DNA of 64,000 bases from Bradyrhizobium lablabi (GTDB lineage Bacteria; Pseudomonadota; Alphaproteobacteria; Rhizobiales; Xanthobacteraceae), in NCBI RefSeq assembly GCF_900141755.1, contig NZ_LT670844.1, forward strand, positions 4,960,001 to 5,024,000, given 5' to 3'. Position 1 is the first letter of the stretch, and each line of letters opens with the position of its first letter. This document shows positions 42,884 to 62,327 of this stretch, one piece after another. The notes below the pieces were generated by a model that did no database searches, was not told where the DNA came from, and worked only from the letters and a program-made list of their open reading frames with translations. The translations under genes and the position numbers were made by a program.

Positions 42884-42959
42884 GCCCAGGTAGCTCAGTT
42901 GGTAGAGCATGCGACTGAAAATCGCAGTGTCGGTGGTTCGATCCCGCCCCTGGGCACCA
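42884..42959 (+). tRNA. tRNA-Phe (GAA)
   Basis: Complete cloverleaf: acceptor GCCCAGG / CCTGGGC, D-arm GCTCAGTTGGTAGAGC, anticodon stem TGCGA / TCGCA with loop CTGAAAA (anticodon GAA at 42917-42919), T-arm GTTCGATCC, encoded CCA at 42957-42959. 76 bases. Gene content changes in character downstream of its 3' end. Confidence 0.98.
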
Positions 42960-43223: not shown

Positions 43224-43787
43224 TTACGTTGGTCTCGCGGCGGGTTGCCATGCGTATGTCAACCACGCCAAACCGTGAGATATCAGGTCGACGCCGAGGA
43301 GAAATCCGAGCACCCAGAGACCTGTCATCGGGAATCCCGACAGAATGACGAGGCCGGCCAGAACTCCGAACGCTCCCGACAGCAGCATGATCCAGCCGGC
43401 AGATCGCCAGTGGCTGAAACCGAGCAAGATTCGAACGAAGCCGGATATCAGGAGCAGCAGTCCGAGGATATAAGTGAGGATTAAAGCGCTCGCGACAGGC
43501 TGGCTTACGACGACAACGCCTAACGCGATGTACAGAACGCCGAGCAGCACCTGCCACACAAATCCTCCCCATCCCTTGGTCCAGAACGCGTGGATGATTT
43601 CGAAGGCGCCCGCCGCGATCGCCATCGTGCCGATGAATATCGTGCTGATAACGGTAACAAGCACGACGTCACCCAACACCAGGAATCCGGCCAGGATCAT
43701 TACAATTCCGAGTAGAACGCAGACCCAAAGGGGTGGCGGGGACAAGTTATCGGCGTGCAAACCCGGACGGCTGTCATAGGTGGTCAT
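43224..43787 (-). CDS. HdeD family membrane protein
   Basis: 187 residues with six membrane helices in three repeated pairs (VCVLLGIVMILAGFLVLGDV, GFVWQVLLGVLYIALGVVVV, AGWIMLLSGAFGVLAGLVIL). The L-L-G-x2-x-I-x2-G-x2 helix pairs and HAFWTKGWGGFVWQVL are characteristic of HdeD, which is linked to acid resistance at high cell density in E. coli; in other bacteria the role is unproven. AGGAGGAC 5 bases upstream fixes the start. The ATG overlaps the stop of a small membrane-protein gene (ATGA). Confidence 0.9.
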   Translation of the reverse strand: MTTYDSRPGLHADNLSPPPLWVCVLLGIVMILAGFLVLGDVVLVTVISTIFIGTMAIAAGAFEIIHAFWTKGWGGFVWQVLLGVLYIALGVVVVSQPVASALILTYILGLLLLISGFVRILLGFSHWRSAGWIMLLSGAFGVLAGLVILSGFPMTGLWVLGFLLGVDLISHGLAWLTYAWQPAARPT

Positions 43788-43990
43788 ATCGTCCTCCTCA
43801 ATTTGGAGCCAATGGGAGGTGAGCGGCGTCGCGGCTCGAGGCTCGGGCAATTGAACGGGCTGTTGTCGGAAAGCTGGCGACGTTGTTGCTTGAGCTTGCT
43901 TATATAGGCGGTCCCCAGCCCAAGCAGGATCACCGCCAGCAATAAGCTCAAGACGAAAATCAGCATGGTTCGCCAGCTGAACTTGTGCAT
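43784..43990 (-). CDS. small single-helix membrane protein, unknown function
   Basis: 68 residues. One membrane helix at about 8-28 (TMLIFVLSLLLAVILLGLGT), then a basic tail (KLKQQRRQLSD and RRRSPPIGSKLRR), which predicts an N-out or N-in single-pass protein with the charged tail in the cytoplasm. The stop overlaps the HdeD start (ATGA), so the two are translationally coupled, which supports it being real. The ribosome site is weak (GGACG). A longer frame from a TTG at 44026 exists. Confidence 0.55.
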   Translation of the reverse strand: MHKFSWRTMLIFVLSLLLAVILLGLGTAYISKLKQQRRQLSDNSPFNCPSLEPRRRSPPIGSKLRRTI

Positions 43991-44153
43991 CAAATCGTCC
44001 AAACGAAACCCGCCGCCAGGGATCAACTGGCGGGCTTCGCCTTTCAGAGTAAAACGCGGCTTTCTTTGTGCTTCGTGCCCTCACAATGCTCGTTCGCAGG
44101 AACCTGCGGTATCAGGTGATTACCTTAGCGTTCGAAAGGGAATCACCTCAGCC

Positions 44154-44650: not shown

Positions 44651-44687
44651 GCTAGGTTTAACACTCGCAACAGTCCATGAGGGTGTG

Positions 44688-45740
44688 ATGGAAACCGTCC
44701 CTTCGGATGCCTCGGCGAGATTTGACCGCGAGACCGTTTTGGTCGATCTCGCCCTGCAAGGCGGCGGCTCGCACGGCGCCTTTACGTGGGGCGTGCTCGA
44801 TCGGCTTCTCGAGGAACCCTGGCTACGGATCGACGGCATCTCGGGCACCTCTGCGGGCGCGATGAATGCGGTGGTGTTGGTCGACGGCTATGAAAAGGAT
44901 GGATCCAAGGGCGCGAAGGCTGCGCTTGAAGATTTCTGGCGGCGCGTCTCGCATTCCGCCCGGTTCAGCCCGATCCGGCGTAGCCCTTTGGATATTCTCT
45001 TGGGCAGATGGACGTTGGACAACTCGCCGTTCTTCGTTGCTTTCGACCTGGCAGCGCGTTTGTTCTCGCCTTATGATTTGAACCCGCGAGGCGCTAATCC
45101 GTTACGTGATATCCTTGCCGAATGCGTCGACTTTGAGCGGGCGGCAAAATCTCCAATCCGTTTGTTCGTGACCGCGACTAACGTTCGCACCGGCCGGGGC
45201 CGCGTATTCCGAAACGGTGAGCTCACGCCGGACGTGCTGCTTGCGTCCGCCTGCCTGCCGACGCTGTTTCAGGCCATCGAGATCGACGGCGAGGCCTATT
45301 GGGATGGCGGCTACTCCGGCAATCCGACCATTACCCCATTGATACGCGAGTGCGCATCGCACGATACGTTGCTCGTTGCGGTCAACCCCGTCGAGCGCCA
45401 GGGCACACCGCGTTCGGCGCGCGAGATCCTCGACCGTTTGAACGAGGTTTCCTTCAATGCCACCCTGTTGAAGGAATTGCGTATGATTGCCTTGTTGCGC
45501 CATGTCGCTGATGTCGGCACAGGCGAGGGCGCTCTATGGGCGGGAATGCGTATTCATCTGATCTCGAGTGAAACCATCGACAAGCTCGGAGCGTCTTCCA
45601 AGTTCAATGCGGAATGGGACTTTCTAAGCATGTTGCGGGACGAGGGCCGTCGTAGCGCGGAATCCTTTCTGACGGCGCATCATGCGAGTATTGGCAAGCA
45701 CTCCACGATCAATCTGGACGTTCTCCTGGAACAGGTCTGA
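44688..45740 (+). CDS. patatin-like phospholipase
   Basis: 350 residues. Patatin core: oxyanion loop LQGGGSHGAFTWGVL, nucleophile Ser55 in ISGTSAGAMN, and catalytic-dyad Asp206 in YWDGGYSGNP, so the active site is complete. The C-terminal part (about 230-350) matches the DUF3734-type extension found in rhizobial and pseudomonad patatins that sit near 3-hydroxybutyrate genes. It is expected to hydrolyse lipid acyl esters, possibly polyhydroxybutyrate-related. ATG at 44688 with TGAGGG upstream; a GTG one codon earlier is possible. The GntP permease gene follows by 4 bases. Confidence 0.9.
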   Translation: METVPSDASARFDRETVLVDLALQGGGSHGAFTWGVLDRLLEEPWLRIDGISGTSAGAMNAVVLVDGYEKDGSKGAKAALEDFWRRVSHSARFSPIRRSPLDILLGRWTLDNSPFFVAFDLAARLFSPYDLNPRGANPLRDILAECVDFERAAKSPIRLFVTATNVRTGRGRVFRNGELTPDVLLASACLPTLFQAIEIDGEAYWDGGYSGNPTITPLIRECASHDTLLVAVNPVERQGTPRSAREILDRLNEVSFNATLLKELRMIALLRHVADVGTGEGALWAGMRIHLISSETIDKLGASSKFNAEWDFLSMLRDEGRRSAESFLTAHHASIGKHSTINLDVLLEQV

Positions 45741-45744
45741 TGTC

Positions 45745-47196
45745 ATGGGCCTTCTAGGCATTCTCCTTGCGTTGGGGCTGCTTGTCTGGCTGGCTTATCG
45801 CGGATGGAGCGTGCTCCTGTTGGCTCCTGCGGCCGCACTTATCGCTGCTGCCATTTCTCGGGAGCCGTTGCTCGCCCATTGGACGCAAACCTTCATGGGC
45901 AGCGCGGCGCAGTTCCTCGCGCAATTCTTCCCGCTGTTCCTGCTCGGCGCGCTGTTCGGCAAGCTCATGGACGACAGCGGTTCGGTCGAAGCCATCGCAG
46001 GCTTCATGACCGAGCGACTGGGTGCGCGCCGCGCGATACTGGCGGTGGTGCTTGCGGGTGCGCTGGTGACGTATGGGGGCGTCAGCCTGTTTGTTGCCTT
46101 CTTCGTTTTGGCGCCGATGGCGCAGGCGCTTTTTCAGGCCGCCGATATTCCGCGGCGGCTGATGCCGGCGGCGATCGCGCTCGGCACCTCGACGTTCACG
46201 ATGACCGCTTTCCCCGGCACGCCCGCCATTCAGAACGCGATTCCGATGCCATTTTTCGGCACCACACCCTTTGCTGCACCTGGCCTCGGCATTATCGCTT
46301 CAGCAATCATGCTGGGATTTGGATTGTGGTGGCTCGCCCGTTCCGAAGCCGCCGCTCGGCGAAAAGGCGAAGGCTATGGCAGCACCGATATTGCGCCCCG
46401 CATAGCTGCCGATGATCCGATCATTCGAGAGCGAGCGACGACCGCACGCGAATTCGATCCCGCCGAGATCAGCCACGGCCGACACGGCAACACCCTGGTG
46501 CCGATCGGTTTTGCCGTGCTGCCGCTGGTTGTTGTCGTGAGTGTCAATCTCCTGATGTCGCTCGTCATTCTGCCGCGTCTGGACTTTTCCTTTCTGGCGG
46601 AGCCGCGCTGGGGCGCTACGTCATTGTCTGCCGTTGCGGGTGTATGGTCGGTGGTGGTGGCACTCGCGACCGCGATCCTTACGCTTATCCTTGTCAATCG
46701 TCAGAGGTTACCGACGTTGCGCGAGAGCATGGATGCCGGCGCCAACGCCTCCGTCTTGCCGGCGTTCAGCGTCGCCAGCCTCGTGGGCTTCGGCGCCGTC
46801 GTCGCGATGCTGCCCGCGTTTGCGATGGTGCGTCAATGGGTGCTTTCAATTGGAGGCGGGCCGTTGGTCTCGCTCGCGATGGCGACTAACGTACTGGCCG
46901 CCCTGACCGGTTCGGCTTCGGGTGGCATGACGATCGCGCTCGATGCGCTCGGCGACACCTATATGCGCATAGCCGCGGAGCAAGGCATCGATCCCGCGTT
47001 GATGCACCGGGTAGCCGCAATTGGCTCCGGTACCCTTGACAGCTTGCCGCACAATGGTGCGGTCGTGACATTGCTCGCCGTCTGTGGCTCGACGCATCGC
47101 GAGAGTTATCTCGATATCGTCATGGTTGGGATTGTCAGCGCACTCGTCGCCCTCGTGGCGGTCATTGTCCTGGGCTCGACGTTTGGCTCTTTCTAA
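45745..47196 (+). CDS. GntP family permease
   Basis: 483 residues with about 12-13 membrane helices. Family features are the N-terminal helix (MGLLGILLALGLLVWLAYRGW), FLLGALFGKLMDDSGSVEAIAGFM, AFPGTPAIQNAIPMPFFGT, and GSASGGMTIALDALGD with LDSLPHNGAVVTLLAVCG near the end. Members carry gluconate or other organic acids; several in proteobacteria transport D-3-hydroxybutyrate. Coupling to a patatin of the polyhydroxybutyrate-associated type makes a short hydroxy acid the best guess. No dehydrogenase gene is next to it. Confidence 0.92.
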   Translation: MGLLGILLALGLLVWLAYRGWSVLLLAPAAALIAAAISREPLLAHWTQTFMGSAAQFLAQFFPLFLLGALFGKLMDDSGSVEAIAGFMTERLGARRAILAVVLAGALVTYGGVSLFVAFFVLAPMAQALFQAADIPRRLMPAAIALGTSTFTMTAFPGTPAIQNAIPMPFFGTTPFAAPGLGIIASAIMLGFGLWWLARSEAAARRKGEGYGSTDIAPRIAADDPIIRERATTAREFDPAEISHGRHGNTLVPIGFAVLPLVVVVSVNLLMSLVILPRLDFSFLAEPRWGATSLSAVAGVWSVVVALATAILTLILVNRQRLPTLRESMDAGANASVLPAFSVASLVGFGAVVAMLPAFAMVRQWVLSIGGGPLVSLAMATNVLAALTGSASGGMTIALDALGDTYMRIAAEQGIDPALMHRVAAIGSGTLDSLPHNGAVVTLLAVCGSTHRESYLDIVMVGIVSALVALVAVIVLGSTFGSF

Positions 47197-47806: not shown

Positions 47807-49438
47807 TTACCGCGCGAATACCGCCGTACCTAACGCGATGATCAGTATCAGCAACGACATGGCGGCCGCCGGCCACTGACGAAGAGCACTGTCCATCCGC
47901 TCGAGCGTCTTACCCCACACAACAGCCACCCGTATGCCAACATCTATTGCCACCGCAACGTCTCCCTCTGGAACGCGTGGCAACCAACGCGCCCAACGCC
48001 ACAGCGCAATCGCAAGTACGGCGCCCAGCAAAACGGGCCAAAGCGCCTTCCATAGGACCGCAGGAGCAAGCGGGTCGGGCAGCGTTCCGCTCGGGACCGT
48101 CAGATATAGCGCCCACGGCACCACGAGCGAAACCGCAGCGGTCGCCAGCCAGGGCCAGACAAGTCCGACGGCCGCTGTCGCCTCCGGGTCTTGTGACGCC
48201 GTTTTCGCAAGGCTGCGCAAGAACTGCAGCATCAGCAGCGTCGTGCCGACAGCGGACAGCGTTGCAATCTTGCTCGCGATACTATCTCCCAGCAGTCCGT
48301 CGGCTACGAGTTTCGCCAAAGCGCCGCCAGTAAATGGGAGCCCGCCGAGGCCCACCGCAATGATTGCCACGGGCAGAAGCATCGGCCATAGGCGTCGGCT
48401 GCCGGTCGCGGCGATGACGCCCACGGACAGGAACAGCGCACCTTTGACCAGGACGTGGTGCGCGGCATAGAAAGCCGCTGCCAGTGCGGCGCGGTCATCT
48501 CCAGCGAGCATTCCCATGCCAATGACCGCGACGATGAATCCCATCTGGCTCACGCTCGAATACGCCAACACGACCTTGGGGTTGTGTTGCGTGATTCCAA
48601 TCACAACGCCGTAGATCGCGGCGAAGAGTCCTGCGGCTGCGAGTGCCGTACCCCAATCGGGCAGTGCGGTTTCAAGGGGTAGAAAGCGGATCATTCCAAG
48701 GATGCTTGCCTTGACAACCGCACCGCTCAGCACAGCGGAAGCAGGCGTCGGCGCCGCTGCATATGCCAGTGGCATCCAGAAGTGGAATGGCACGAGGCCC
48801 GCCTTCATGCCCAGGCCGGCTATCAACAGGGCGAGGATCAGATCGCGTTGAGGCGAGGTCGGCAACGCCGCCGCGGCATCACGCATCAACAGGCTATCCC
48901 CCGGGATTTGCGCGGCCAGCAGCACGAACGCCATCAGCAGGAATGCTTCCGCCAGCAGCGCGAGCCCGATATAAACCGCGCCGGCGCGCCATGCACGGGG
49001 CGTTTCGTGGTGGATGACGAGTCCGCAGGCTCCGAGGGTGAGCAGCGCAAGAAGAAAATAGAAACTCACCATGTCGGCGGCCAGAAATACGCCGAGGCAG
49101 CCGGTCAGCGTCATCAACCAGCACACCACGAATCGCCCGCGGTTTGGCCGGCCCTGCATATACTGCAAGGCGTAAGCACCCGATGTGATCCACAACAGCG
49201 CCGCAACGCCAAGCAGCACGGCTCCGGGAAGGTCGAGGGCGAAAGTCAGGTGCAGGCGTGTTGAACCTAAGATCAGCGCGGTATCGTGAGTAGCAAGTAA
49301 CACGGCGGCAAGCGCCGGGATCGGGGCGAACGTGAGGCACGAAGGCATCCGGTTCAGCGCGCGCGGCCAGAGGCATGCCAGCAGCATGCCGAGTGGGACG
49401 ACGATGACGCTAGCCAGTAATGTCCTTGTCTCGATCAT
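47807..49438 (-). CDS. second proton-antiporter-like subunit of the Mrp cluster (NuoL/MrpA-D type)
   Basis: 543 residues with about 14 membrane helices. The proton-translocating core is clear: GLGMKAGLVPFHFWMPLAYAAAPTPASAVLSG with Lys212, and VVLAYSSVSQMGFIVAVIGMG. Aligned to the neighbouring MrpD (LYVALELLTF with Glu155), this protein reads FYFLLALLTL, placing Ala131 at the TM5 Glu that is essential in MrpA, MrpD and NuoL/M/N. One half-channel may thus be altered or inactive. It is the last gene of the seven-gene operon and takes the place of the large N-terminal part of MrpA. It starts 4 bases inside the mrpD end. Confidence 0.88.
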   Translation of the reverse strand: MIETRTLLASVIVVPLGMLLACLWPRALNRMPSCLTFAPIPALAAVLLATHDTALILGSTRLHLTFALDLPGAVLLGVAALLWITSGAYALQYMQGRPNRGRFVVCWLMTLTGCLGVFLAADMVSFYFLLALLTLGACGLVIHHETPRAWRAGAVYIGLALLAEAFLLMAFVLLAAQIPGDSLLMRDAAAALPTSPQRDLILALLIAGLGMKAGLVPFHFWMPLAYAAAPTPASAVLSGAVVKASILGMIRFLPLETALPDWGTALAAAGLFAAIYGVVIGITQHNPKVVLAYSSVSQMGFIVAVIGMGMLAGDDRAALAAAFYAAHHVLVKGALFLSVGVIAATGSRRLWPMLLPVAIIAVGLGGLPFTGGALAKLVADGLLGDSIASKIATLSAVGTTLLMLQFLRSLAKTASQDPEATAAVGLVWPWLATAAVSLVVPWALYLTVPSGTLPDPLAPAVLWKALWPVLLGAVLAIALWRWARWLPRVPEGDVAVAIDVGIRVAVVWGKTLERMDSALRQWPAAAMSLLILIIALGTAVFAR

Positions 49439-50967
49439 CGCGGCATACCCGTCAATGCCTCCGGGCGGCCAACCTGAAAAACATCGACGGGGCCGAGCGC
49501 GACGAAACCTAGTAACAGCGACGTCAGCGCCAGCGCCAGCGCAGCCGCCTCTTGATACCGCGGCACGACTATGCGCAACTTAAGCGGCTCCCGCGCTGGT
49601 ACGAGCGCGCGCGCGAGCACGATGAACATATAGCCGCTCGTGAAGAGGCCTCCCGCGAGCATCACCATCGCCCACCACCATTGACCGGTTGCGACGGCCG
49701 CCTCGAGCAACAGCCATTTCGCCAGAAAGCCGCCACTTGGTGGCAACCCGATCAGGGACACTCCGCCGAGCGCGAACGCGAAGATCGTCATCGGAAGCGC
49801 GCGTGCGATCCCTCCAAGCTCGGCGATCCGATCATGCCCAAGCGCCGCGTAGATGAGTCCAGCGGCCATGAACATGGCCGCCTTCGCCGTCGCGTGCGAG
49901 ATCGCCTGAAGCATGCCGCCGGTCAAAGCGCCGCTACTCTGGAGCTGTGTCTGCGCCGTGTCGAAGGCGAGCGGAAACATCAGGAACAGGTAACCGATCT
50001 GCGCGACCGTCGAATAGGCGATCAGGAGCTTGAGTCGCTCCTGTCGCAGTGCGACGACGCTGCCGAATACAATTGCCGCCGCCCCAAGCGCACCGAAGAT
50101 TTGCGCGCCGGCTGGACCGAGCATCCCCGGCATGACGTCGAACCAGAGCCGTACGACGAGGAAGAACGATCCCTTCACCACCACTCCCGACAGAACCGCG
50201 CTGGCGGCCGCCGGCGCACCGGCGTGGGCCGGCGGAAGCCAAAGATGCAGTGGAAAGAGCGCGGTCTTGGCGAAGAGTCCGACAGTCATCAGCGCGGCAG
50301 CAACGAGTGTCGCGGGCTCCATATGAACTCGATGAGACAACAGAACAATGTCGAGCGTCGCATAACTGCCGTACAGCAGTGCCGTTCCAACCAGATAGAG
50401 AATCGAGCCGAGCAGAGCGAAGAGCAGATACCGCAGGGCGGCCTGCAGTGTCTCCGCGCGGCCATCGAGAGAGACCAGCGGTACCGCGGCAAAGGTGAGG
50501 AGCTCGAGCGCGACGTATAAGGTGAACAGATCTCCGCCCAGAAACACCATATTCATTGCGCCCCAGATCGCCATCAGCAGTATCCAGAACGCGAACGGTG
50601 CGCGGATTTCGACCGACCCCGCAGCAGTACCGAAGTCCGCATGGGCAAACACGCCGACGGCGCAGATCACGATCGCCATCGTTACCATCATCGCCGCCGA
50701 AAGTCCGTCGGCCCGCAACGCAATGCCGAGCGGGGGCGTCCAATCCCCGACGATGTATATCAGCCGGTGGCCGCTTCGCCATACGTCGGCGAAGATGACA
50801 AATGCGATGGCGAGACCGCACGGCAGAAGAACGAAGACTATCCTTTCAACGTACCGCCCGCCGAAGGCCAACGACAACAGAACGCCCGCGACCGGCAATA
50901 CGATCGCCAGAACAAGGAGAGCTCCATCTTTCGTCGTCACGTCGGGCAAGAGGGTTGCGTCCGGCAT
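49435..50967 (-). CDS. mnhD: Na+/H+ antiporter subunit D (Mrp type)
   Basis: 510 residues with 14 membrane helices. Conserved elements: TM5 Glu155 in LYVALELLTF, TM7 Lys234 in GLFAKTALFPLHLWLPPAHA, TM8 region SAVLSGVVVKGSFF, and LLIAYSTVAQIGYLF with Lys in the preceding loop. MrpD is one of the two ion-translocating subunits, moving protons against Na+ or other monovalent cations. It overlaps the MrpC end by one base and is followed with a 4-base overlap by a second antiporter-like subunit. Confidence 0.94.
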   Translation of the reverse strand: MPDATLLPDVTTKDGALLVLAIVLPVAGVLLSLAFGGRYVERIVFVLLPCGLAIAFVIFADVWRSGHRLIYIVGDWTPPLGIALRADGLSAAMMVTMAIVICAVGVFAHADFGTAAGSVEIRAPFAFWILLMAIWGAMNMVFLGGDLFTLYVALELLTFAAVPLVSLDGRAETLQAALRYLLFALLGSILYLVGTALLYGSYATLDIVLLSHRVHMEPATLVAAALMTVGLFAKTALFPLHLWLPPAHAGAPAAASAVLSGVVVKGSFFLVVRLWFDVMPGMLGPAGAQIFGALGAAAIVFGSVVALRQERLKLLIAYSTVAQIGYLFLMFPLAFDTAQTQLQSSGALTGGMLQAISHATAKAAMFMAAGLIYAALGHDRIAELGGIARALPMTIFAFALGGVSLIGLPPSGGFLAKWLLLEAAVATGQWWWAMVMLAGGLFTSGYMFIVLARALVPAREPLKLRIVVPRYQEAAALALALTSLLLGFVALGPVDVFQVGRPEALTGMPR

Positions 50968-51308
50968 CAGGAATTGCCTCTGTCCGTACTTGTGCCTCCG
51001 GAACTATCGGAGCTGAGCGTGGCTCGGCCGGTTTCTTGCAAAAGCCGCAGCATCAGTGCGATAGCCATGGCGGTAGCCGCGAAGGCAACCACAATCGCGG
51101 TAATGACCATCGCCTGAGGAACCGGATCACCCCCGAGACCAGCCGCGGCGGCCCTCCTGGCTATGACGCCGAACAGCAGAAACACGCCGCTCCCCAGCAG
51201 GTTGAATGCCAGTATCTTGCGCAGCGGCTCGGGATTTGTGATGAGCCCGTACAATCCAAGGCCCGCCAGCGCCGCACCGCATAGCCCGAACAACGTTGCA
51301 GCGTTCAT
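50967..51308 (-). CDS. mnhC: Na+/H+ antiporter subunit C (Mrp type, NuoK homologue)
   Basis: 113 residues with three membrane helices. NuoK-like pattern: LFGLCGAALAGLGLYGLI, then KILAFNLLGSGVFLLFGVIA (the L-G-x-x-x-L-x-G helix) and GDPVPQAMVITAIVVAFAATA, which has the DP-x-PQAL-V-L-T-A-I-V motif of MrpC. It is essential for antiporter assembly in known systems. The start at 51308 overlaps the end of the MrpB-like gene by 4 bases. Confidence 0.94.
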   Translation of the reverse strand: MNAATLFGLCGAALAGLGLYGLITNPEPLRKILAFNLLGSGVFLLFGVIARRAAAAGLGGDPVPQAMVITAIVVAFAATAMAIALMLRLLQETGRATLSSDSSGGTSTDRGNS

Positions 51309-52246
51309 TGGTGCCGCGCCCGTTCTGGCGGGCCCGCGGCCAGCAGGCCCAGTGCTACACCGATCGAAAGTGTCAAAGCGGCCTCCACCGCGACAATCAT
51401 CGGCTTGGCGTAACCTGACGGGTAAGCAAGAAAGGCGTTCGCCCACACCAGGCCGGCGAGCCCGATAGCAAGGAAGATCACCGGCCCGACGACGAGTAGC
51501 AGGCGTAGCCAAGGCTGACTGATCGAAGGTACACTCTCCAGGCCAGCGATCATGACAAGGAGCCACATCGCGGCTAAGACCGTGCCGCCTTGAAAGGCGC
51601 CCCCCGGCTCGTTCGCACCGACCCAGCACATATAGATTGCCACCACTATTCCCACCGGTGGTAGAAGTTGAGCAAGAAAAGTCAGCGTAGTGTTTCGTTG
51701 CGCATAGACACGCAGCCCCGGTATTCCGCCCCACACGCTGTCCGGCGCCAACGACCAGACGCCGAGCAAGGCGAGCAGCAAGACCACTTTTTCGAGCAAC
51801 GTGTCGAGCGCGCGGTAAACGAACAGAACGCCGGCGACGGGATTGCCGAGGCCAGTCTGCGCCAGGTTCTCCATCACTGTCGGGGCGAGGGTGGGAGTAA
51901 CTTCGGGCGGCAGTAGTATCGCGGTTGCGAGGCCTGCCGCGATCAGGGCGCACAATACTCCCGCCGCAAGACGAGTTGGCAGGCTGGTCGGGATGCCGTT
52001 ACCCTTGGAAAAGCGCTGGCGTGCGGCCGCACCGAGCATCAACAAGCCGGTCATTCCACCGCCGATCGCCGCTTCGGTCAGCGCTACATCTACGGCAGCG
52101 AGCCTGACCCAGGCGATGGCCATCAGAAGCCCATAAACGACGAACGCGATAGCGGCCGCAAAGGCCTCGCGCACGGCAATCGTCGCAGCACCGATTCCGA
52201 GGATCAGGACGACAAGACCGATATCGAAAAAAGACAAAAGGATCAT
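51305..52246 (-). CDS. fused DUF4040 (MrpA C-terminal) and MrpB-type subunit
   Basis: 313 residues in two parts. The N-terminal part (1-90, LVVLILGIGAATIAVREAFAA and AAVDVALTEAAIGGGMTGLL) matches DUF4040/MbhD, the piece at the C-terminal end of MrpA. The C-terminal part (about 130-313, NPVAGVLFVYRALDTLLEKVVLLLALLGVW and GANEPGGAFQGGTVLAAMWLLV) matches MnhB, with its P-G-G-x-F-Q-G motif. In most Mrp operons these are on separate proteins or within MrpA, so this is a rearranged version. The ATG at 52246 overlaps the mnhG stop (ATGA). Confidence 0.88.
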   Translation of the reverse strand: MILLSFFDIGLVVLILGIGAATIAVREAFAAAIAFVVYGLLMAIAWVRLAAVDVALTEAAIGGGMTGLLMLGAAARQRFSKGNGIPTSLPTRLAAGVLCALIAAGLATAILLPPEVTPTLAPTVMENLAQTGLGNPVAGVLFVYRALDTLLEKVVLLLALLGVWSLAPDSVWGGIPGLRVYAQRNTTLTFLAQLLPPVGIVVAIYMCWVGANEPGGAFQGGTVLAAMWLLVMIAGLESVPSISQPWLRLLLVVGPVIFLAIGLAGLVWANAFLAYPSGYAKPMIVAVEAALTLSIGVALGLLAAGPPERARHQ

Positions 52247-52536
52247 CCCCGTGGTCCGTGTTGTCGAACGGCGCCTGCCATGAGCTGGGCAACAATCGCG
52301 CCGGACAATTGGACGAGCAGCCAAATGCTGACCAGCTTGAGCCCGCCGAGTAGTCCATTGGCATGTGGCAACAGCCCAAGAACGACAAGGCCAAGGCCAA
52401 GATTGTCCACCTTGGTCAGCGCGTGCAGACGCGTTAGCGAGTCCGGGAAGCGGAGCAAACCAACCGTACCCGCCAGAAAGAAGAACGCACCCGCCGAGAC
52501 CGCGGAAACGGTGAAGATGTTAAACACAAGGTTCAT
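52243..52536 (-). CDS. mnhG: Na+/H+ antiporter subunit G (Mrp type)
   Basis: 97 residues with three membrane helices. MnhG pattern: AGAFFFLAGTVGLLRFPDSLTRLHALTKVDNLG (G-x-x-x-R-x-P-D-x-x-x-R-x-H-A-x-x-x), followed by LLGGLKLVSIWLLVQLSGAI. It is a small accessory subunit. The gene overlaps mnhF by 4 bases and the MrpB-like gene by 4. Confidence 0.93.
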   Translation of the reverse strand: MNLVFNIFTVSAVSAGAFFFLAGTVGLLRFPDSLTRLHALTKVDNLGLGLVVLGLLPHANGLLGGLKLVSIWLLVQLSGAIVAQLMAGAVRQHGPRG

Positions 52537-52820
52537 CCGCCGCTCGTTGCCTTTGGGATCTCGCTCTCGGAATCGGACGCGTTTCTGACGAACGCGACTG
52601 CCGCGAATGCGGCAAACAGCGCCAACATCAATGCAACATCCACGATCGGCGACGTTTCGGTCGCCGCGGCCAGCAAAAGAAGTATAGCGACGCCACCCGT
52701 GCCCAATAGCTGCGCCACCATCATGTGGTCGACCTCGGCCGGGCGCTGAAGAATGACAAACAAACCGAGCGCGACCATCGTCAGCACGAAACCCGCGGCT
52801 CCGAACAGGAAGCTAGTCAT
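52533..52820 (-). CDS. mnhF: Na+/H+ antiporter subunit F (Mrp type)
   Basis: 95 residues with three membrane helices: VLTMVALGLFVILQRPAEVD, MMVAQLLGTGGVAILLLLA and PIVDVALMLALFAAFAAVAF. The D-x-A-L-x-L-A-L-x-x-x-x-x-x-x-A sequence of the last helix is the clearest family trait. It is a small accessory subunit, overlapping mnhE by 8 bases and mnhG by 4. Confidence 0.9.
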   Translation of the reverse strand: MTSFLFGAAGFVLTMVALGLFVILQRPAEVDHMMVAQLLGTGGVAILLLLAAATETSPIVDVALMLALFAAFAAVAFVRNASDSESEIPKATSGG

Positions 52821-53355
52821 TGCGCTGTACCCCTCCGAGTGTCTGCGTGCATAGGGTTTCCTCCGCGGCCAACTGCTCGACCACCGGCTGCGTTATATCG
52901 AGACAATGGATGGACAGCCCGTCGCCTTCCGCGGATCCGCACGGAAGCGTGCCCGGCAGCAAACTCACTATTGCGCAGAAGGTATTTCTCCTTGTGCCCG
53001 GCGGCAGGTGCGTTTGATAGATCACGAAGCCGGGCCGCAACGGCAGCCGAGGATCAAGCGCCCGCCAGGCGACGTCTATCCCGGCACCAATTGATTGACG
53101 CAGAAAGTGCAGTACGAGTTCGGCAAGCTTGATGGGACGCAGTTTCCATTGCTTCGCCGGCATCAGGCGCAGACTGGCCCAGGTTGCCGCGACAGCAGCT
53201 ACCGACCCGGCCGCGAGATCGGCAGAGTCGGCGTCAGTTAGCACCAGCCAGAAGCCAAAAAATACGGCAGCGCGGGAAATCGCACCCGCGAGGGCACCGC
53301 CCGGATTTTTCACGAGCGGCCCCACGCGCCTGCTTCGTTCCTCCAACGGGTTCAT
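52813..53355 (-). CDS. mnhE: Na+/H+ antiporter subunit E (Mrp type)
   Basis: 180 residues. Two to three N-terminal membrane helices (RAAVFFGFWLVLTDADSADLAAGSVAAVAATWASL), then the MnhE cytoplasmic core LAELVLHFLRQSIGAGIDVAWRALDP, GFVIYQTHLPPGTRRNTFCAIVSLLPGTLPCG and a C-terminal HCLD. The G-T-x-R-x-x-x-A-x-x-x-x-x-P-G-T motif is typical. First gene of the antiporter operon; the start at 53355 is preceded by GGAGGTTGGTAGGG. A longer frame to 53406 is possible but not needed. Confidence 0.92.
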   Translation of the reverse strand: MNPLEERSRRVGPLVKNPGGALAGAISRAAVFFGFWLVLTDADSADLAAGSVAAVAATWASLRLMPAKQWKLRPIKLAELVLHFLRQSIGAGIDVAWRALDPRLPLRPGFVIYQTHLPPGTRRNTFCAIVSLLPGTLPCGSAEGDGLSIHCLDITQPVVEQLAAEETLCTQTLGGVQRND

Positions 53356-54832: not shown

Positions 54833-56095
54833 CTAGTAGTCCACCGCATCGCGGATAATCGGACAGGTCATGCAGTGACCGCCACCGCGGCCGCGGCCGA
54901 GTTCGGCACCAACGATCGTGACGACCTCGATGCCTTCCTTGCGCAGCAGAGTATTCGTATATGTGTTCCGGTCGTAGGCGAAGACAACACCCGGAGACGC
55001 ACAAACAAGATTTGCGCCGCTATCCCATTGCGTCCGCTCGCGCATATAAGCATTGCCGCCGGTCTCGACCACGCGCAGCTTCTTGAGGCCAAGTGCATCG
55101 GCTATCACCTCGACGAACGGCTTGTCGTCCTTGCGCAACTCAACTCCGCCCGACTTGTTGCTCGGCCGGTATGAAAACGCGGTGATGTTGTTCACGATGT
55201 CGGGATAGAGCAGAACACAGTCGCGGTCGGCGAATGTGAAGACTGTATCCAGATGCATCGCCGCGCGGAGCTTGGGCATCGCCGCCACAATGACCCGCTC
55301 TACCGCGCCTTTTTCAAATAGCGCGGCTGCGAGTTGGCTGATGGCCTGGCGCGAGGTGCGCTCGCTCAAGCCGATCAGCACATTGCCCTTGCCGATCGGC
55401 ATGACATCGCCGCCCTCGAGCGTGGCGAGGCCATGGTCCTGTGTCGGATCACCCCACCAAACGTTGACTTTGCCGGCGAAGTCGGGATGAAACTTGTAGA
55501 TGGCTGTGGTCAGGATAGGTTCTTCGTGCCGCGCGGGCCAATAAAGCGAGTTGAGGGTGACGCCGCCATAGATCCAGCACGTGGTGTCCCGCGTATACAG
55601 CGTATTGGGAAGGGGAGGCAGCAGGTATTCAGTCATGCCCGCGGCCTCGCGGACAAGTTTGAGCATGTCGCCGCCGTGAGCGTCGGGAAAGTCCAGGGTC
55701 GATAAGCCGCCAATCAGGGTTTCGGCGAGTTCGCGGGGCTGCAGGCCATCGAGATAGCCGCGGATCTCATCGACCAGACCAAGGCCCACCTGATTGGGCA
55801 CAACTTGATTGTCGAGAATCCACTTCTTGGCTTCGGGGATAGCGACCGTCTCCGTGAGCAGGTTATGCATCTCGACCACTTCGACGCCGCGATCGCGCAT
55901 CTTTTGGACGAAATCGAAATGGTCCCGCTTGGCGTTGTCCACCCACAAGACGTCGTCAAATAACAAAGTGTCGCAGTTGGAGGGCGTCAGGCGTTGATGA
56001 GCACGTCCCGGCGCGCACACCATAACCTTGCGCAGCTGACCGACCTCTGAGTGAACGCCGAAGGGGACTGACGATCTGAGATTTGCTTCTGCCAT
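54833..56095 (-). CDS. arcA: arginine deiminase
   Basis: 420 residues. It hydrolyses L-arginine to citrulline and ammonia, the first step of the ADI pathway, which raises cytoplasmic pH and can yield ATP. Catalytic Cys408 is in [10 protein letters not shown]. Other family motifs are [43 protein letters not shown] (catalytic His and Asp) and [11 protein letters not shown]. Start at MAEANLRSS (56095); an open frame to 56188 is outside the family. The antiporter gene lies 14 bases upstream. No carbamoyltransferase (arcB) or carbamate kinase (arcC) is in the window. Confidence 0.96.
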
Positions 56096-56109
56096 GAGAT
56101 CCGCCTTGC

Positions 56110-57540
56110 CTAGATGGTGATGTAGCCGGTCGCCAGCCCGTGGATGCCAACCGCCGCGCCGATCAGCGCGACGGCGAAGATGACCCATTCCACCGCGGTG
56201 AAGAGCTGCTTTTTCTGCTCCCGCTTCGCCCAGATGTAGAGCACGGTGCCGGGCCCGTAGAGGATCGCCGAGAGCAGCAGGAACTTCATCCCGGCGGCAT
56301 AGAGCAGGAACAGGGTATAGATCACTGCGAGACCGGCGATGATCAGATCCCGCGTGCGCTCCTCTGGCCGCGTTCCGTAGGTTTCGCCGCGCCTGGCCAT
56401 CAGGAATCCGTATGCCGCGACGAGGAAGAACGGAATCAGCGCCATCACGCTGGTCAGATTCAACATCAGCGAGAACGCGTCATTGGACCAAAAGGTGCTG
56501 ATGACGAAAAGCTGAACGATGATGTTGGTCATCCATAGCGCAGCCGCCGGCACTTTGTTCTGGTTCTCGGTTGCGAAAACCTTCGGCATGTCCTTGGTCT
56601 TTGCAGCTACCGAGAGTACCTCGGCGCAAATCAGGGACCATGCGAGATAAGCGCCTAGCACCGAGACGATCAAACCGGCACTGACGAAGACTGCGCCCCA
56701 GTGCCCGACCACGGCCTCCAGCACCGTTGCCATCGACGGCTGACGCATGCCGGCAACGTCGGCGCGGGTGAGAGCGGCGTATGGCAGCATGGTGACCAGC
56801 ACCATCAGGGTCGTTACGCCGAGAAAGCCAAAAATGGTCGCCGTGCCGACGTCGGAACGTTCTTTGGCATAGCGCGAATACACGCTCGCACCCTCGATCC
56901 CGAGGAAGACGAACACCGTAACGAGCATCGTCGCGCGGATCTGGTCGAACAGGCTGGCGGGCGGCATGCCTTCGCCGCCCCAGAAGTTCGCGCGGAACAG
57001 ATTGGCCTTGAACGCGAAAATCAGGAGTACGATGAAAACCAGGATAGGGACGATCTTTGCGATCGTGACGACGGTATTGATAGCGGCAGCCTGCTGGACT
57101 CCCCGCAGGATCATGAAGTGAAAGAGCCAAATTCCGATCGAGGCGACGACGATCGCCGTAACCGTGTTGCCATCCCCGAAGATCGGAAAGAACGCGCCGA
57201 GCGTTGACTTGATCAGAACCCAATACGAAACGTTGCCGATGCAACTACCGACCCAGTAGCCGAGCGCCGACAAAAAACCGGGATAGTCGCCGAACCCGGC
57301 CTTGGCATAGGCGTAGACGCCGGCGTCCAGATCGGGTTTGCGTTCGGCGAGCGCCTGAAACACGCGGGCCAGCATGTACATGCCGCCTCCCGCGATGCAC
57401 CACGCAATGATGGCGCCAAAGGGCCCGGTCGCGAGCGCGAAGGTTCGCGGCAACGAAAAAATGCCCGAGCCCACCATTGACCCGACCACCATCGCGGTCA
57501 GGGCGAACAAAGAAAGCTTCTGTGCCGGCTGCGACGTCAT
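56110..57540 (-). CDS. arcD: arginine:ornithine antiporter-like APC transporter
   Basis: 476 residues with about 13 membrane helices. APC-superfamily start [19 protein letters not shown] (G-x-G-x-G loop of TM1) and [20 protein letters not shown] in TM3, then [21 protein letters not shown] (TM6) and [22 protein letters not shown], as in ArcD/LysI-type basic amino-acid antiporters. It exchanges arginine for ornithine or a related product, feeding arginine deiminase encoded immediately downstream. GAGG precedes the ATG at 57540; the frame is open to 57555. Confidence 0.93.
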
Positions 57541-57653
57541 ATCGAACCTCAGCAATGCCAGCCAGCGAAAACCCTTGTGGTTCGGGTGTGGCCCTGAGTG
57601 ACGCTAAATCGGCTACAATTCGAGCGGAGTTGCAGCCGCATCACGACGCTGCT

Positions 57654-58158: not shown

Positions 58159-61100
58159 CTATGCCGAACTGGACGAAGCATCCGGCGATGCTTCGTTTCC
58201 CTTGAACCAGGCAACATACAATGTGGGCAGAAAGATCAGCGTCAAAATCGTCGCGACCAACAAACCTCCCATAATTGCAAAGGCCATCGGTCCCCAGAAC
58301 ACCGTCGGAGCAATCGGTATCATACCGAGAACGGTGGATACAGCCGTCAGCATGATGGGGCGGAAACGGGAGCTGCTGGCATCGATGGCGGCTTCCCAAG
58401 CATTTTTTCCCTGGGAACGCTCCGCCTCGATCTGACCGATCAAGATCACCGCATTCTTGGTAATCATGCCCAGCAGCGCCAGGATGCCCAGGATTGCAAC
58501 GAAGCCCAGCGGTCTGCCAGAAACCAGGAGCGCCGCGACGACACCGATCAGGCCGAGAGGCGCTACGCTGAGGACCAGGAACAATCGTTGGAAGCTTTGT
58601 AACTGGACCATGAGGACGGTGAACATGATGAGCAACATGACCGGTACAACGGCGATGACGGAAGCCTGCGATTTCTTGCTCTCTTCTACAGTCCCGCCAA
58701 CAACGATATTATACGATGGCGGAAGGGTCTTTATCAGGGTTTCCACCAAGGGTGAAAGCGAGGTCACTACCGTCTCCGGCAGGGCTCCCGCGACGATGTC
58801 GGCTTGCACGGTCAGGGTCGGAACGCGGTCGCGCCGCCAGATCAAGGGATATTCCTGCTCATATTCGAAGGTCGCAAACTGACTGAGCGGAACCGTTTGC
58901 CCACCGGGCAACGGCACTTGCAGGGTGCGCAGAGTGGAAAGCGAGACGCGCTGCTCATCCGTCGCACGTGCGATGACGTCGACCAAAAAGATATCGTCGC
59001 GCACTTGGGTAACGGCGGTGCCGGATATGACGGTATTCAGAACATTGGCTAGTGCTTGCGAGCTGAGGCCCAGCAAGCGCGCCTCATCCTGGTCGACACG
59101 AATGCGCACCTGCCGGGCGGGCTCGATCCAGTCAAAATTGACCTTTTCGGCTTTGGGATTGGTTGCGATGATCTGGGCGAGCTTGAGAGCAATGGCACGA
59201 ACCTGATCTACGTCGGGACCACTGACGCGATATTGCAGAGGCCATCCGACCGGAGGCCCAAGTTCAAGTGGGTAAACCCGCGAAATTGCGCTTGGAAGCT
59301 GTTCTGCCAGGATTTCTTCCAGCTTCAGACGAAGACGCTCGCGGGCCGCGACGTCCTTTGCAACAATTACGCCTTGGGTGAAAAAATTGTTGGGTAACTG
59401 GACGTTGAGTGGCAGATAGAAGCGAATAGCGCCGCGGCCCACATAAGTGCTCCAGCGCGAGACATCTGGATCGCCCTTCAGAGCAGCATCAAGGCGTTGC
59501 GCCGCGGATTCGCTGGCATAGATCGACGCATTCTGCGGCAGACTGAGGTCAACGAGCAACTCCGGACGATCCGAGGACGGAAAGAATTGCCGGGGTATCA
59601 GCGGAAGCGCGAGAAAGGACGCGACGAAGAGGGCCAACGAAGCGAAAATTGTTACCCATTTCCCTCGCATCGCAAGCGTGAGGAAATCCCGATACCATTG
59701 GTAAATCCTGCCGGGACTGGCGGCCTTTGCCGCCTTCGGTGGAGTGAGAATGACGACACCCAGCAGCGGCGCAAAGATGACCGCAACGAACCAGGACACG
59801 ATCAGTGCGATGCTGACCACCGCGAAGAGCGAGAATGTGTATTCTCCCGCTGAACTGGCAGCAAAGCCGACCGGGACAAAACCTGCGATCGTTACCAGCG
59901 TTCCCGCCAGCATGGCGAACGCGTAGGTCCGGAACGCGTAGGTCGCGGCCTCGACCTTGTCGTCGCCTTCCGCCAATCGATTGAGCGTGGCGTCCGTAGT
60001 CGTCATCGCGTCGTCGACGAGCAACGCGAGGGCAATGATAAGTGCGCCGAGCGATATTCGCTGCATATCGATGCCCGCCATTTTCATGGTCGGAAAAACG
60101 ATGGCCAGCGTCAACGGAATGGAAAGTGCGATGATCAAGCCGGGGCGGACACCGAGACTGATGAAGCTCACCGCGAGAATAATCGCGATCGCTTGCAGCA
60201 GCGACGTCATGAATTCGGAGATGGCGCCGTCGACGGTGACGGCCTGGTCGGCGATTAATTTCGGCTCGATGCCGATAGGCAGGTCCGCCGTGATCCGCGC
60301 CATCAATTGCTTGATGTTCGCGCCCAGAGCAAGAATGTCACCGCCTTCTCGCATGGCGATCGCAAGTCCGATCGCCGGTTCGCCATTCACACGAAAAAGT
60401 GGCTGTGGCGGGTCGGAGTAATCGCGCCGTACTTGCGCGATATCGCTAAGGCGGAGCATCCGTCCGCCGGCGACGAAATTGGTGTTCGCGACATCCTGTT
60501 CGGACAGAAATGCGCCTGAAACCCGCACCGAAAGACTTTCATCGCCGGTTTGAATCGTGCCGGCCGGCCGTACGATGTTCTGCGCTTGCAGCGCGGCAAT
60601 CAGTGCAGATCGGTCGATCCCCAGGCTGGCGAGTTCCTTCATCGAGAATTCGACAAAGATCTTCTCGTCTTGGGTTCCCAGCAGTTCGATTTTTGATACG
60701 TCAGGCACAAGCAGCAGCTGCGAGCGGATATCCTCCACACGGTCACGCAGTTCGCGGTGCGTGAAGCCATCGCTTGTAAAGCCATAGATGATCCCGAACG
60801 TATCGCCGAAATCATCATTGAAGCCGGGCCCAATAATTCCTGCCGGCAGTGTGCTCCGGATATCGCCGACGTTCTTGCGAACCTGATACCAGGTGTCGGA
60901 AACGTCTTTTGCGCTCGCGCTGCCCTTCAGGTTGACAAAGATTGTCGTGACGCCGGCACGCGTGAAGCTGCGCAGAAAATCCAGGTGAGGGGTCTCTTGC
61001 AGTTTGCGCTCGAGCCGTTCAGTGACCTGCTTGAGCGTCTCCTCAACGGTCGCTCCGGGCCAAGCCGCCTGAACTACCATGGTTTTAATGATGAAGGCAG

Positions 61101-61221
61101 GATCCTCGCTGCGGCCAAGTCGGAAATAGGACAAAACCCCCGCGATGACAGCAACAATCATGATATAGGCGACGAGCGAGCGGTTTTTGAGCGCCCATTC
61201 GGAAAGATTGAGCCCCGTCAT
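58159..61221 (-). CDS. RND efflux transporter, inner-membrane pump subunit
   Basis: 1020 residues, full length for a proton-driven HAE1-type pump with 12 membrane helices and two large periplasmic loops. The TM4 proton-relay pair Asp403-Asp404 is in LIIALALLVDDAMTTTDA. The N-terminal NRSLVAYIMIVAVIAGVLSYF and SEDPAFIIKTMVVQAAWPGATVEET match the AcrB/MexB-like subgroup with ExbD-like short loops (YhiV/CusA relatives less likely, no Met triad seen). It exports drugs or toxic solutes with the adaptor encoded just upstream. No outer-membrane channel gene is in the window. Confidence 0.94.
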   Translation of the reverse strand: MTGLNLSEWALKNRSLVAYIMIVAVIAGVLSYFRLGRSEDPAFIIKTMVVQAAWPGATVEETLKQVTERLERKLQETPHLDFLRSFTRAGVTTIFVNLKGSASAKDVSDTWYQVRKNVGDIRSTLPAGIIGPGFNDDFGDTFGIIYGFTSDGFTHRELRDRVEDIRSQLLLVPDVSKIELLGTQDEKIFVEFSMKELASLGIDRSALIAALQAQNIVRPAGTIQTGDESLSVRVSGAFLSEQDVANTNFVAGGRMLRLSDIAQVRRDYSDPPQPLFRVNGEPAIGLAIAMREGGDILALGANIKQLMARITADLPIGIEPKLIADQAVTVDGAISEFMTSLLQAIAIILAVSFISLGVRPGLIIALSIPLTLAIVFPTMKMAGIDMQRISLGALIIALALLVDDAMTTTDATLNRLAEGDDKVEAATYAFRTYAFAMLAGTLVTIAGFVPVGFAASSAGEYTFSLFAVVSIALIVSWFVAVIFAPLLGVVILTPPKAAKAASPGRIYQWYRDFLTLAMRGKWVTIFASLALFVASFLALPLIPRQFFPSSDRPELLVDLSLPQNASIYASESAAQRLDAALKGDPDVSRWSTYVGRGAIRFYLPLNVQLPNNFFTQGVIVAKDVAARERLRLKLEEILAEQLPSAISRVYPLELGPPVGWPLQYRVSGPDVDQVRAIALKLAQIIATNPKAEKVNFDWIEPARQVRIRVDQDEARLLGLSSQALANVLNTVISGTAVTQVRDDIFLVDVIARATDEQRVSLSTLRTLQVPLPGGQTVPLSQFATFEYEQEYPLIWRRDRVPTLTVQADIVAGALPETVVTSLSPLVETLIKTLPPSYNIVVGGTVEESKKSQASVIAVVPVMLLIMFTVLMVQLQSFQRLFLVLSVAPLGLIGVVAALLVSGRPLGFVAILGILALLGMITKNAVILIGQIEAERSQGKNAWEAAIDASSSRFRPIMLTAVSTVLGMIPIAPTVFWGPMAFAIMGGLLVATILTLIFLPTLYVAWFKGNEASPDASSSSA

Positions 61222-62327
61222 GGCTCTGACCCGAGCACGCGAATCTTCTGGCCCGGGTGGAGCGCCTGAACACCCGCCGTGACTACGATTTCGCCGGTGT
61301 CGAGTCCCTGGGAAACGACGACCCGCGCCTGGTCAAAGCGCAACACGTCGACGTTTCGGATTGAAACCGTATGGGTCGATGGATCGACAATCCATACCGC
61401 CGGCTGTTGATTGATCTTCGTTAATGCCGTTGCCGGTATCTCGATGATCGGTCCGGCGTCGGTTTCCACGCGCCCGACCACGGTCGCCCCGAGTCGCATT
61501 GCCAGCGGAGGGTCAGTCAAGCCGACTTTGACCTCGAAGGTTCGGGTTACAGGATTGGCTTGGGCGGCGACCTCGCGGATACGTCCGGAGGCAGTCACCG
61601 AGGGATCGTCCGTCAGGCTGACGGTGATCCGGGGATCGGCAGGTGCTGATCGAAGGAACTGGGCCGGAATGTCGAAAATGGCATCGCGACCGTCTTTCCG
61701 CGCAAGCCTGGCGATCATTTGCCCCGCCTGAACAACTTCCCCCGCGCCAGGACCTATTGCGGTTATTATCCCCGGCGCATCGGCCTTGAGCTCGGTGAAG
61801 CTTACCAAATCATGTGCGGTATGTAGCTGGGCTTCGGCTGCATCTACTTGCGATTGAGCGGTTTGTTGCGCCTGCGTCGCGACATCGAAATTGGCCCGCG
61901 TCGTCCATCCCTGTGCCAGAAGCGTCTCCTGGCGTTCGAAATGATTGCGCGCCTGCGTTAATTGCCCCTGAGCGGCCGCAAGACCTGCCTGCGCCTGCCG
62001 CAGCGCGTTCAACTCGTTCTGTGGTTCAAGTCGTGCCATTATTTGCCCGGGTTCCACCCGGTCCCCGAGCTTGCCGCTGCTTTCCAATAGCCGCCCGGAA
62101 ATTCGAAACGCCACGCTCACTTCATCTTCAGCCTCGATACGGCCTGTAAATGTAACTTGCTGACCGCCCTCACGTTTCTGAACGGTTGTCGTCCGAGCTG
62201 GACGGGCTGCCGGAGCTGCGGTGTCTGTCTCTCTCTGGCAGGCCGCGAGCAGCAATACCGGCGCAATTGTCATGAGCGCCATCATAAGCATTCGATATAA
62301 TGTCGTCTGGTCGGCGCGCATGGGCAT
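61218..62327 (-). CDS. RND efflux periplasmic adaptor (membrane-fusion lipoprotein)
   Basis: 369 residues. Signal with lipobox LLLAAC (lipid-attached Cys30). Order: biotinyl-lipoyl half, helical hairpin (NALRQAQAGLAAAQGQLTQARNHFERQETL, QTAQSQVDAAEAQLHTAHDLV), second lipoyl half (DAPGIITAIGPGAGEVVQAG), beta-barrel and membrane-proximal domains (TALTKINQQPAVWIVD). It links the pump to an outer-membrane channel. It overlaps the pump gene by 4 bases (ATGA). The operon starts 466 bases from the divergent sensor-kinase gene, its likely regulator. Confidence 0.93.
   Translation of the reverse strand: MPMRADQTTLYRMLMMALMTIAPVLLLAACQRETDTAAPAARPARTTTVQKREGGQQVTFTGRIEAEDEVSVAFRISGRLLESSGKLGDRVEPGQIMARLEPQNELNALRQAQAGLAAAQGQLTQARNHFERQETLLAQGWTTRANFDVATQAQQTAQSQVDAAEAQLHTAHDLVSFTELKADAPGIITAIGPGAGEVVQAGQMIARLARKDGRDAIFDIPAQFLRSAPADPRITVSLTDDPSVTASGRIREVAAQANPVTRTFEVKVGLTDPPLAMRLGATVVGRVETDAGPIIEIPATALTKINQQPAVWIVDPSTHTVSIRNVDVLRFDQARVVVSQGLDTGEIVVTAGVQALHPGQKIRVLGSEP

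Follow-up and report, generated by a model that had tools for sequence, protein, structure and literature searches.

Organization of the operon

The window analyzed here—64,000 nucleotides of Bradyrhizobium lablabi DNA (contig NZ_LT670844.1, positions 4,960,001 to 5,024,000)—contains an operon for the subunits of an Mrp-type antiporter, which lies on the (-) strand between window positions 53355 and 47807 and ends in D2, an unusual antiporter-like subunit that is the main subject of this report. It consists of seven open reading frames (ORFs) in the order E-F-G-B'-C-D-D2, every neighboring pair overlapping, and all seven have Pfam matches above gathering scores: MNHE, MrpF_PhaF, PhaG_MnhG_YufB, MbhD and MnhB (in one protein), Oxidored_q2, and Proton_antipo_M twice. 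A preliminary description of the locus had listed the genes as E-F-G-(DUF4040+B fusion)-C-D-second D-like, and the ORF coordinates, overlaps and Pfam matches agree with this; DUF4040 was its name for the region matched by PF13244 (MbhD). The genes are as follows.

52813..53355, (-) strand: MrpE (PF01899, 82.4 bits; matches 6u8y_A and 7qru_E)
52533..52820, (-) strand: MrpF (PF04066, 29.1 bits)
52243..52536, (-) strand: MrpG (PF03334, 74.7 bits; matches 7qru_G and 6z16_G)
51305..52246, (-) strand: B', 313 residues, MbhD-like, MbhE-like, then MrpB (PF13244 and PF04039)
50967..51308, (-) strand: MrpC, NuoK-like (PF00420, 63.9 bits; matches 6u8y_G and 6z16_C)
49435..50967, (-) strand: MrpD, with the usual Glu on transmembrane helix (TM) 5 and Lys on TM7 (PF00361, 180 bits)
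47807..49438, (-) strand: D2, a separate distal antiporter module without the TM5 Glu (PF00361, 113 bits)

MrpE, MrpF, MrpG, MrpB, MrpC and the C-terminal (MbhD) domain of MrpA are all present. The last of these is fused to MrpB in B', most of which can be aligned with residues 610-919 of the MrpA model NF009288 (954 residues; 61.4 bits, below the model cut-off), in keeping with the earlier proposal that the C-terminal piece of MrpA had been joined to MrpB. The antiporter and MbhD domains, which an MrpA of group 1 or 2 carries in a single polypeptide, are encoded by separate genes. The TM7 Lys/TM5 Glu pair, expected in every large subunit of an Mrp (CPA3) system, is found in D and not in D2.

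When the genome (7.91 Mb, a single contig) was scanned, PF00361 was found at seven places: NuoL, NuoM, NuoN, two in a Hyf-like (hydrogenase-4-like) cluster about 0.6 Mb from the Mrp operon, D, and D2, the Nuo and Hyf names being assigned by reading the genes. No match to the MrpA model TIGR00940 was obtained at E ≤ 1e-100. Since all seven places are accounted for, the genome has no MrpA, as had been proposed, and the operon is its sole Mrp set.

Replacement of the TM5 glutamate

Ala131 of D2 aligns with the TM5 Glu of the solved MbhH, MrpD, MrpA and MbsH' chains, and Lys212 is retained on TM7; both residues had been identified correctly in the preliminary description. The codons of interest in D2, with the residues found in an alignment of 85 D2 rows, are these.

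49046..49048, (-) strand: Ala131, at the TM5 Glu position (Ala, Ser or Thr in 83 of the 83 rows with a letter)
48947..48949, (-) strand: Glu164, on TM6, the candidate replacement acid (Glu in 85 of 85)
48803..48805, (-) strand: Lys212, on TM7 (Lys in 85 of 85)

The 85 rows comprise 80 named genome loci (the best 80 of 237 relatives), the loci of four further relatives, and the window; L015 and L045 are one locus, hence 84 of the D2 sequences are distinct. Their sources include Bradyrhizobium, Tardiphaga, Variovorax, Paraburkholderia, Lysobacter, Dyella, Aeromonas popoffii, Candidatus Contendobacter, Methylococcaceae, Hyphomicrobium, Xanthobacter, Myxococcaceae, Fimbriimonadaceae, Chthoniobacterales and Rubrobacter. 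The full seven-gene set is present at 75 of the 85 places, and nine of the incomplete sets are situated at the ends of contigs. Additional D genes, at least one each, occur in L073 (Crenalkalicoccus) and in L093, L095 and L098 (Rubrobacter metagenome-assembled genomes), the D2 of L035 is split across two frames, and in Bradyrhizobium sp. URHD0069 (L022, 9001-10569) a D2 with a possibly cut start stands alone in mid-contig, without the rest of the operon.

Residue 131 is Ala in 56 of the rows, Ser in 18 and Thr in nine; the remaining two are cut-off contigs. Because Ala131 stands in all 121 close rows (window included), neither chance nor a sequencing error explains it, and the invariant residue pattern across these and the 85 wider rows likewise rules out a degenerate pseudogene. 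As far as these rows reach, the loss of the TM5 Glu is old and family-wide in D2, spanning several phyla.

An invariant glutamate on TM6

The preliminary description took an essential acid to be missing from D2. The TM5 Glu is indeed replaced, and wide alignment places no acid at site 131 itself, but an invariant acid, Glu164, is found on the next helix (residues 147-177 of the D2 model), which comes close to the one outcome—another acidic residue taking over at the site—that the description had named as counting against it. On sequence grounds Glu164 is a strong candidate to take over from the TM5 Glu.

In the D rows of the same loci a TM5 acid is present in 85 of 85 (Glu in 84 and Asp in one at 131), and residue 164 is Ser, Gly or Ala. 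Glu occupies site 131 in 54 of 59 further rows (Nuo, Hyf, MrpA and other Mrp layouts), the other five being members of the D2 family with Glu164. An alignment of 227 antiporter-like rows has an acid on TM5 only in 138, on TM6 only in 87, at both sites in one and at neither in none, with one gap; exactly one carboxylate is present at the two sites in 225 of the 227. The sole row with both is the genome's own NuoL (Glu at 131, Asp at 164), and the gapped row is a D2, at 131. The 59 further rows hold partial NuoM/NuoN duplicates, and the D2-family row L121 repeats L078. In the solved chains 6cfw_H, 7qru_D, 6z16_A, 7qru_A and 6u8y_X the TM5 residue is always Glu and the TM6 residue is Ser, Gly or Ala, and the MrpA rows have Gly at 164 (16 of 16) and Glu at 131 (15 of 16).

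A search with a D2 profile (E ≤ 1e-85) matched 14 of 398 Pseudomonadota genomes, two of which (the window's own and G036) had already been counted. All 12 newly found D2 proteins, down to 293 bits, have Ala or Ser at 131 together with Glu at 164. Other charged residues of D2 are also kept—His328 and Lys332 in 85 of 85 rows, Lys243 in 83, and Lys376 in 84 with one gap. Residue 380, in the TM12 region, is Lys in 73 of the 85 rows and Asp in 11, the window among them, again with one gap.

Fold and phylogeny of D2

The AlphaFold2 model of D2 has a mean pLDDT of 88.7. When it was compared with solved structures, the best chain of each entry listed was NuoL/ND5 or MrpA, and the predicted fold matches MrpA from residue 1 to about residue 586-615 in 7d3u_A and 7qru_A. 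Because the predicted fold of D2 best matches NuoL and MrpA, the operon counts as a dissected Mrp of Group 3, a class already published, in which the mrpA gene is absent and mrpD is present, at times in several copies. In a tree, D2 forms a clade of its own that is neither MrpD nor MrpA (39 rows, SH-aLRT 100). The initial view of D2 as a separate D-like subunit replacing the antiporter part of MrpA holds for the separate gene and for the D-like sequence; by predicted fold, however, D2 is of the NuoL/MrpA type, and in the tree it stands apart from D.

At the early-branching D2 loci L143-L151 there are three antiporter-like subunits in series, D-D-D2, recalling NuoN-M-L. Another layout without MrpA (L109-L112, L114-L119 and L125) has E-F-G, two B-type genes, C, D, D and then, after a gap, a third and more distant D-like protein. 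The TM7 Lys is Asn in eight of the 59 further rows, mostly in this third protein.

Comparison with TM6 of NuoL

All 25 NuoL rows have Glu at 131, Arg at 161 and Asp at 164, the reading frames of these and of the 16 MrpA rows having been chosen by profile; another alignment, with some rows in the wrong frame, has the same residue pattern in its 20 aligned NuoL. The TM6 pattern, Arg-x-x-Asp, is that of Arg175 and Asp178 of E. coli NuoL in the numbering of PMC13324432, which gives a Lys229–Asp178 distance of 3.3 Å and describes a double ion pair with Glu144 and Arg175. At the Arg site D2 has Leu, Val or Ile, and of the elements of the double ion pair (TM5 Glu, TM6 Arg and TM6 Asp) it has a TM6 acid only. 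The equivalence of Glu164 to the NuoL Asp is favored by the spacing from the TM5 site to the TM6 acid, which is 33 residues in D2 and 34 in two NuoL, and by MAFFT alignments, which place the two at the same site. A profile comparison of D2 with one MrpA shows a Gly-rich stretch at the Glu164 region. Because Glu164 aligns with the site of NuoL Asp178, 3.3 Å from the TM7 Lys in E. coli, the Lys/acid pair of D2 has probably been re-sited, not lost.

Residues of the cation path

B' contains the cation-path acids expected in the C-terminal part of MrpA and in MrpB, where such acids have been shown or proposed to be essential (PMC7419157, PMC9568556). Glu58 is conserved in 77 of 77 letters, and Asp148, Glu152 and Glu288 each in 78 of 78 rows. 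By motif and spacing, Glu58 and Asp148/Glu152 would correspond to E706 and D792/E796 of 6z16, and Glu288 would be the counterpart of Asp121 of B. pseudofirmus. Proposed cation-path residues are kept in part (B') and replaced in part (MrpF and MrpC, discussed below), and a different ion or stoichiometry, as suggested in the preliminary description, may apply.

Relationship to known Mrp systems

Group 3 Mrp systems have no mrpA and one or more mrpD genes, an example being the stand-alone mrpEFGBB'CD of P. furiosus (PMC8415708). The operon is like it in beginning with E-F-G, in lacking mrpA, in having the MbhD/E-like part apart from the antiporter part, and in having C followed by D. It differs in the addition of D2, a second module with the predicted MrpA-N/NuoL fold, in the union of the MrpA C-terminal part and MrpB in one protein, and in the presence in D2 of a TM6 Glu without a TM5 Glu. 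The dissected Group 3 class is already known (PMC8415708, PMC5703873), and other irregular layouts have been listed, such as mrpFGBCDDAE of Microbacterium (PMC5703873). Relative to the MrpA of groups 1 and 2 (A. flavithermus 6z16, B. pseudofirmus 7qru and Dietzia 7d3u), D2 has the predicted fold of the N-terminal part and B' resembles the C-terminal part, but what is one polypeptide there is two here, and MrpA carries its acid, a Glu, on TM5 (Glu140 in B. pseudofirmus), with Gly where D2 has Glu164. NuoL/ND5 of complex I keeps the TM5 Glu144 and Arg175, neither of which is found in D2, and its TM6 acid is Asp where that of D2 is Glu. HycC of E. coli formate hydrogenlyase (FHL) is another antiporter-like subunit whose Lys/Glu pair is incomplete; there, however, the TM7 Lys is gone and the TM5 Glu remains (PMC9474812), the reverse of D2.

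Neither the TM5-to-TM6 exchange, nor the D2 family, nor the linkage of RND and Mrp genes reported below was found described in the open full-text literature, a scope that excludes subscription papers and supplements. The D2-type operon would be a variant of a known Mrp class, and work on complex I has good reason to take note of it. Proposed mechanisms for Mrp and complex I give the TM5 Glu/TM7 Lys pair a central place, and their literature describes it as conserved or strictly conserved. A family with its acid on TM6, at the place of the second NuoL acid, would be a natural experiment in which the two NuoL carboxylates can be considered apart, and which is testable by mutation, and the D2 of this soil bacterium would likewise serve as a natural test of proton movement in antiporters and respiratory complex I.

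A proposed mechanism

We consider it likely that the operon encodes a complete but dissected Mrp-type antiporter in which D2 is probably active, a Glu164-Lys212 pair replacing the TM5-TM7 pair. MrpA is split, with its antiporter half present as the free D2 and its C-terminal half joined to MrpB. D2 is predicted to be, probably, a proton-conducting module and not a dead subunit, its Lys212 pairing with Glu164 in substitution for the TM5 Glu. Since Glu164 would stand at the place of NuoL Asp178, the second carboxylate of the NuoL double ion pair, D2 would keep a form of the NuoL TM6 acid without the TM5 Glu and the bridging Arg. MrpD, with its normal pair, would be the coupling subunit beside a cation path in B', C, E, F and G. 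We infer both cation antiport and its direction, the complex as a whole most likely carrying out proton-driven cation antiport with D2 as the distal module.

Several observations weigh against this interpretation. The Foldseek ranking of the D2 model mixes MrpA, MrpD and NuoL, with two MrpD chains in the top four, and the nearest solved chains by sequence are MrpD-type (MbhH and MrpD). An hhalign profile of D2 compared with a single NuoL has an 8-residue gap in the TM5-6 region, and does not bring Glu164 opposite the NuoL Asp. Among the MrpA rows, L197 carries Gly instead of the TM5 Glu; it is aligned with a gap there, its profile match being without the N-terminus. The tree suggests a single ancient residue exchange, and the many D2 sequences are therefore not independent evidence. 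MrpF has Gln37 where A. flavithermus has Asp35, a residue proposed for the cation path (of 75 family rows aligned, 70 have Gln), the phmmer alignment to 6z16_F being weak (E 0.27). In MrpC, the His37/His40 of A. flavithermus are Ser40, which is variable in the family, and Phe43 (77 of 78), although the full His pair is likewise incomplete in 6cfw_G and 6u8y_G. No reports of activity for D2-family members were found in the open literature.

Linkage with an RND efflux pump

Upstream of the operon in the window lies a pair of RND genes.

58159..61221, (-) strand: RND efflux permease (NCBIfam RND models, all below cut-offs)
61218..62327, (-) strand: RND periplasmic adaptor (TIGR01730, 216.5 bits, above cut-off; searched as 61221-62330)

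The pair (58159-62327) belongs to a subfamily without an NCBIfam name, whose linkage with this type of Mrp extends across Alpha-, Beta- and Gammaproteobacteria. Linked permeases are 63-93% identical to that of the window, and the relatives' other RND pumps 43-53%. An ortholog was found near 42 of the 80 D2 scan loci and four of five further D2 loci (L120-L124), and near none of 15 non-D2 Mrp loci; with the repeat of L078 as L121 removed, the tally is 45 of 84 against 0 of 15 (Fisher p 4.2e-5, kinship ignored). These counts are lower bounds, as each locus reaches no further than about 9 kb from the match or stops where the contig does: the stretches of L016-L018 (G031, G015 and G025; 0 of 3 in the tally) begin too late to include their RND genes, L015 (G036) falls in no group, and L152 has an adaptor only, near the edge. 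Among the 42, the RND genes are upstream on the same strand in 27, upstream on the opposite strand in nine and downstream in four, two loci being without an upstream part; in 13 of the 27 about 50-160 bases separate the end of the RND match from the estimated mrpE start. In a 60-genome sample that includes the window's own genome, D2 was found at E ≤ 1e-40 in five (the own genome, G015, G025, G031 and G036), and all five have the RND ortholog upstream of mrpE, on the same strand, at about 0.9-5.2 kb. Six other genomes of the sample have RND at 77-84% identity and no D2.

The linkage points to a possible physiological partner for D2-type antiporters, and an alternative account is that the Mrp works with the pump, supplying or balancing its proton gradient or being co-regulated with it, with export under ionic stress as the main role. 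The two modules partly differ in history: the Bradyrhizobium RND is 80% identical to that of Hyphomicrobium and 64% to that of Variovorax, whereas for D2 the order is reversed (50% and 60%). Because RND and D2 rank some relatives differently, their association may have arisen repeatedly, or partners may have been swapped. Overall, however, their identities correlate (Spearman 0.53, 861 pairs), and about half of the scan loci have no RND in the stretch covered; none was found at the nine early-branching D2 loci or at L120, a locus with three antiporters, and in the window arcD, arcA and a porin-like gene intervene between the RND genes and the operon. The evidence is one of linkage, and partnership with the pump seems a rather unlikely main role, though one compatible with a dissected, proton-conducting antiporter rather than opposed to it. 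A broader scenario, which we offer tentatively, is that D2 is a separate old branch gating protons from a TM6 carboxylate, the distal module of a dissected Mrp that, like complex I, ancestrally had three antiporter-like subunits, one large sub-branch forming a unit with a specific RND pump.

An inactive subunit or a redox-driven complex

We judge it unlikely that D2 is a proton-inactive, structural distal subunit, one channel having been lost with the TM5 Glu so that MrpD alone is active with a changed stoichiometry, and Glu164 serving folding or assembly. Such a loss would accord with accounts that describe the TM5 Glu/TM7 Lys pair of such subunits as conserved, or strictly so (PMC9568556, PMC9802314), and with E. 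coli FHL, in which HycC has no TM7 Lys and E135A causes no significant loss of H2 production (PMC9474812), so that pairs can be dispensable. Functional decay, however, would not be expected to leave the axis charges invariant or nearly so and an intramembrane Glu164 in every D2 row.

It is highly improbable that the operon supplies the ion-pumping part of a complex driven by redox or other energy, with its partner encoded elsewhere, as the split layout of the Mrp parts of MBH and MBS (PMC8415708) and the Hyf-like cluster in the genome could suggest, since that cluster is distant and has antiporter-like subunits of its own and no redox gene was noticed among the named recurrent neighbors. The likeness to hydrogenase- or respiratory-complex-linked Mrp sets proposed in the preliminary description was not borne out: the recurrent neighbor is the RND pump, and no hydrogenase or respiratory-complex genes were noticed among the recurrent neighbors of the 85 loci, of which the commonest clusters were named, several by eye. 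Nor were redox-module genes present among those window genes that were run through family models, which included part of the neighboring ORFs.

Other neighboring genes

Clusters of neighbors include antisense frames and are quoted for named genes only. Between the RND genes and the operon lie arcA (arginine deiminase) and an arcD-like gene (arginine/ornithine-type antiporter) at window 54833-57555, (-) strand; arcA is near 13 and arcD near eight of the 80 D2 scan loci, and both are near none of the 15 other Mrp loci. This neighborhood is possibly a pH-homeostasis cluster. No riboswitch or other RNA was found near the operon at Rfam gathering scores, the window containing just two tRNA genes, at 26777-26848 (-) and 42884-42956 (+). 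On the other side of the operon are a patatin-like gene (assigned by eye) and a GntP-like permease (44685-47196, (+) strand), which are near 23 and 20 of the 80 D2 scan loci and none of the 15 others. A look-alike, also by eye, of HdeD-type acid-resistance membrane proteins is encoded at 43224-44084, (-) strand.

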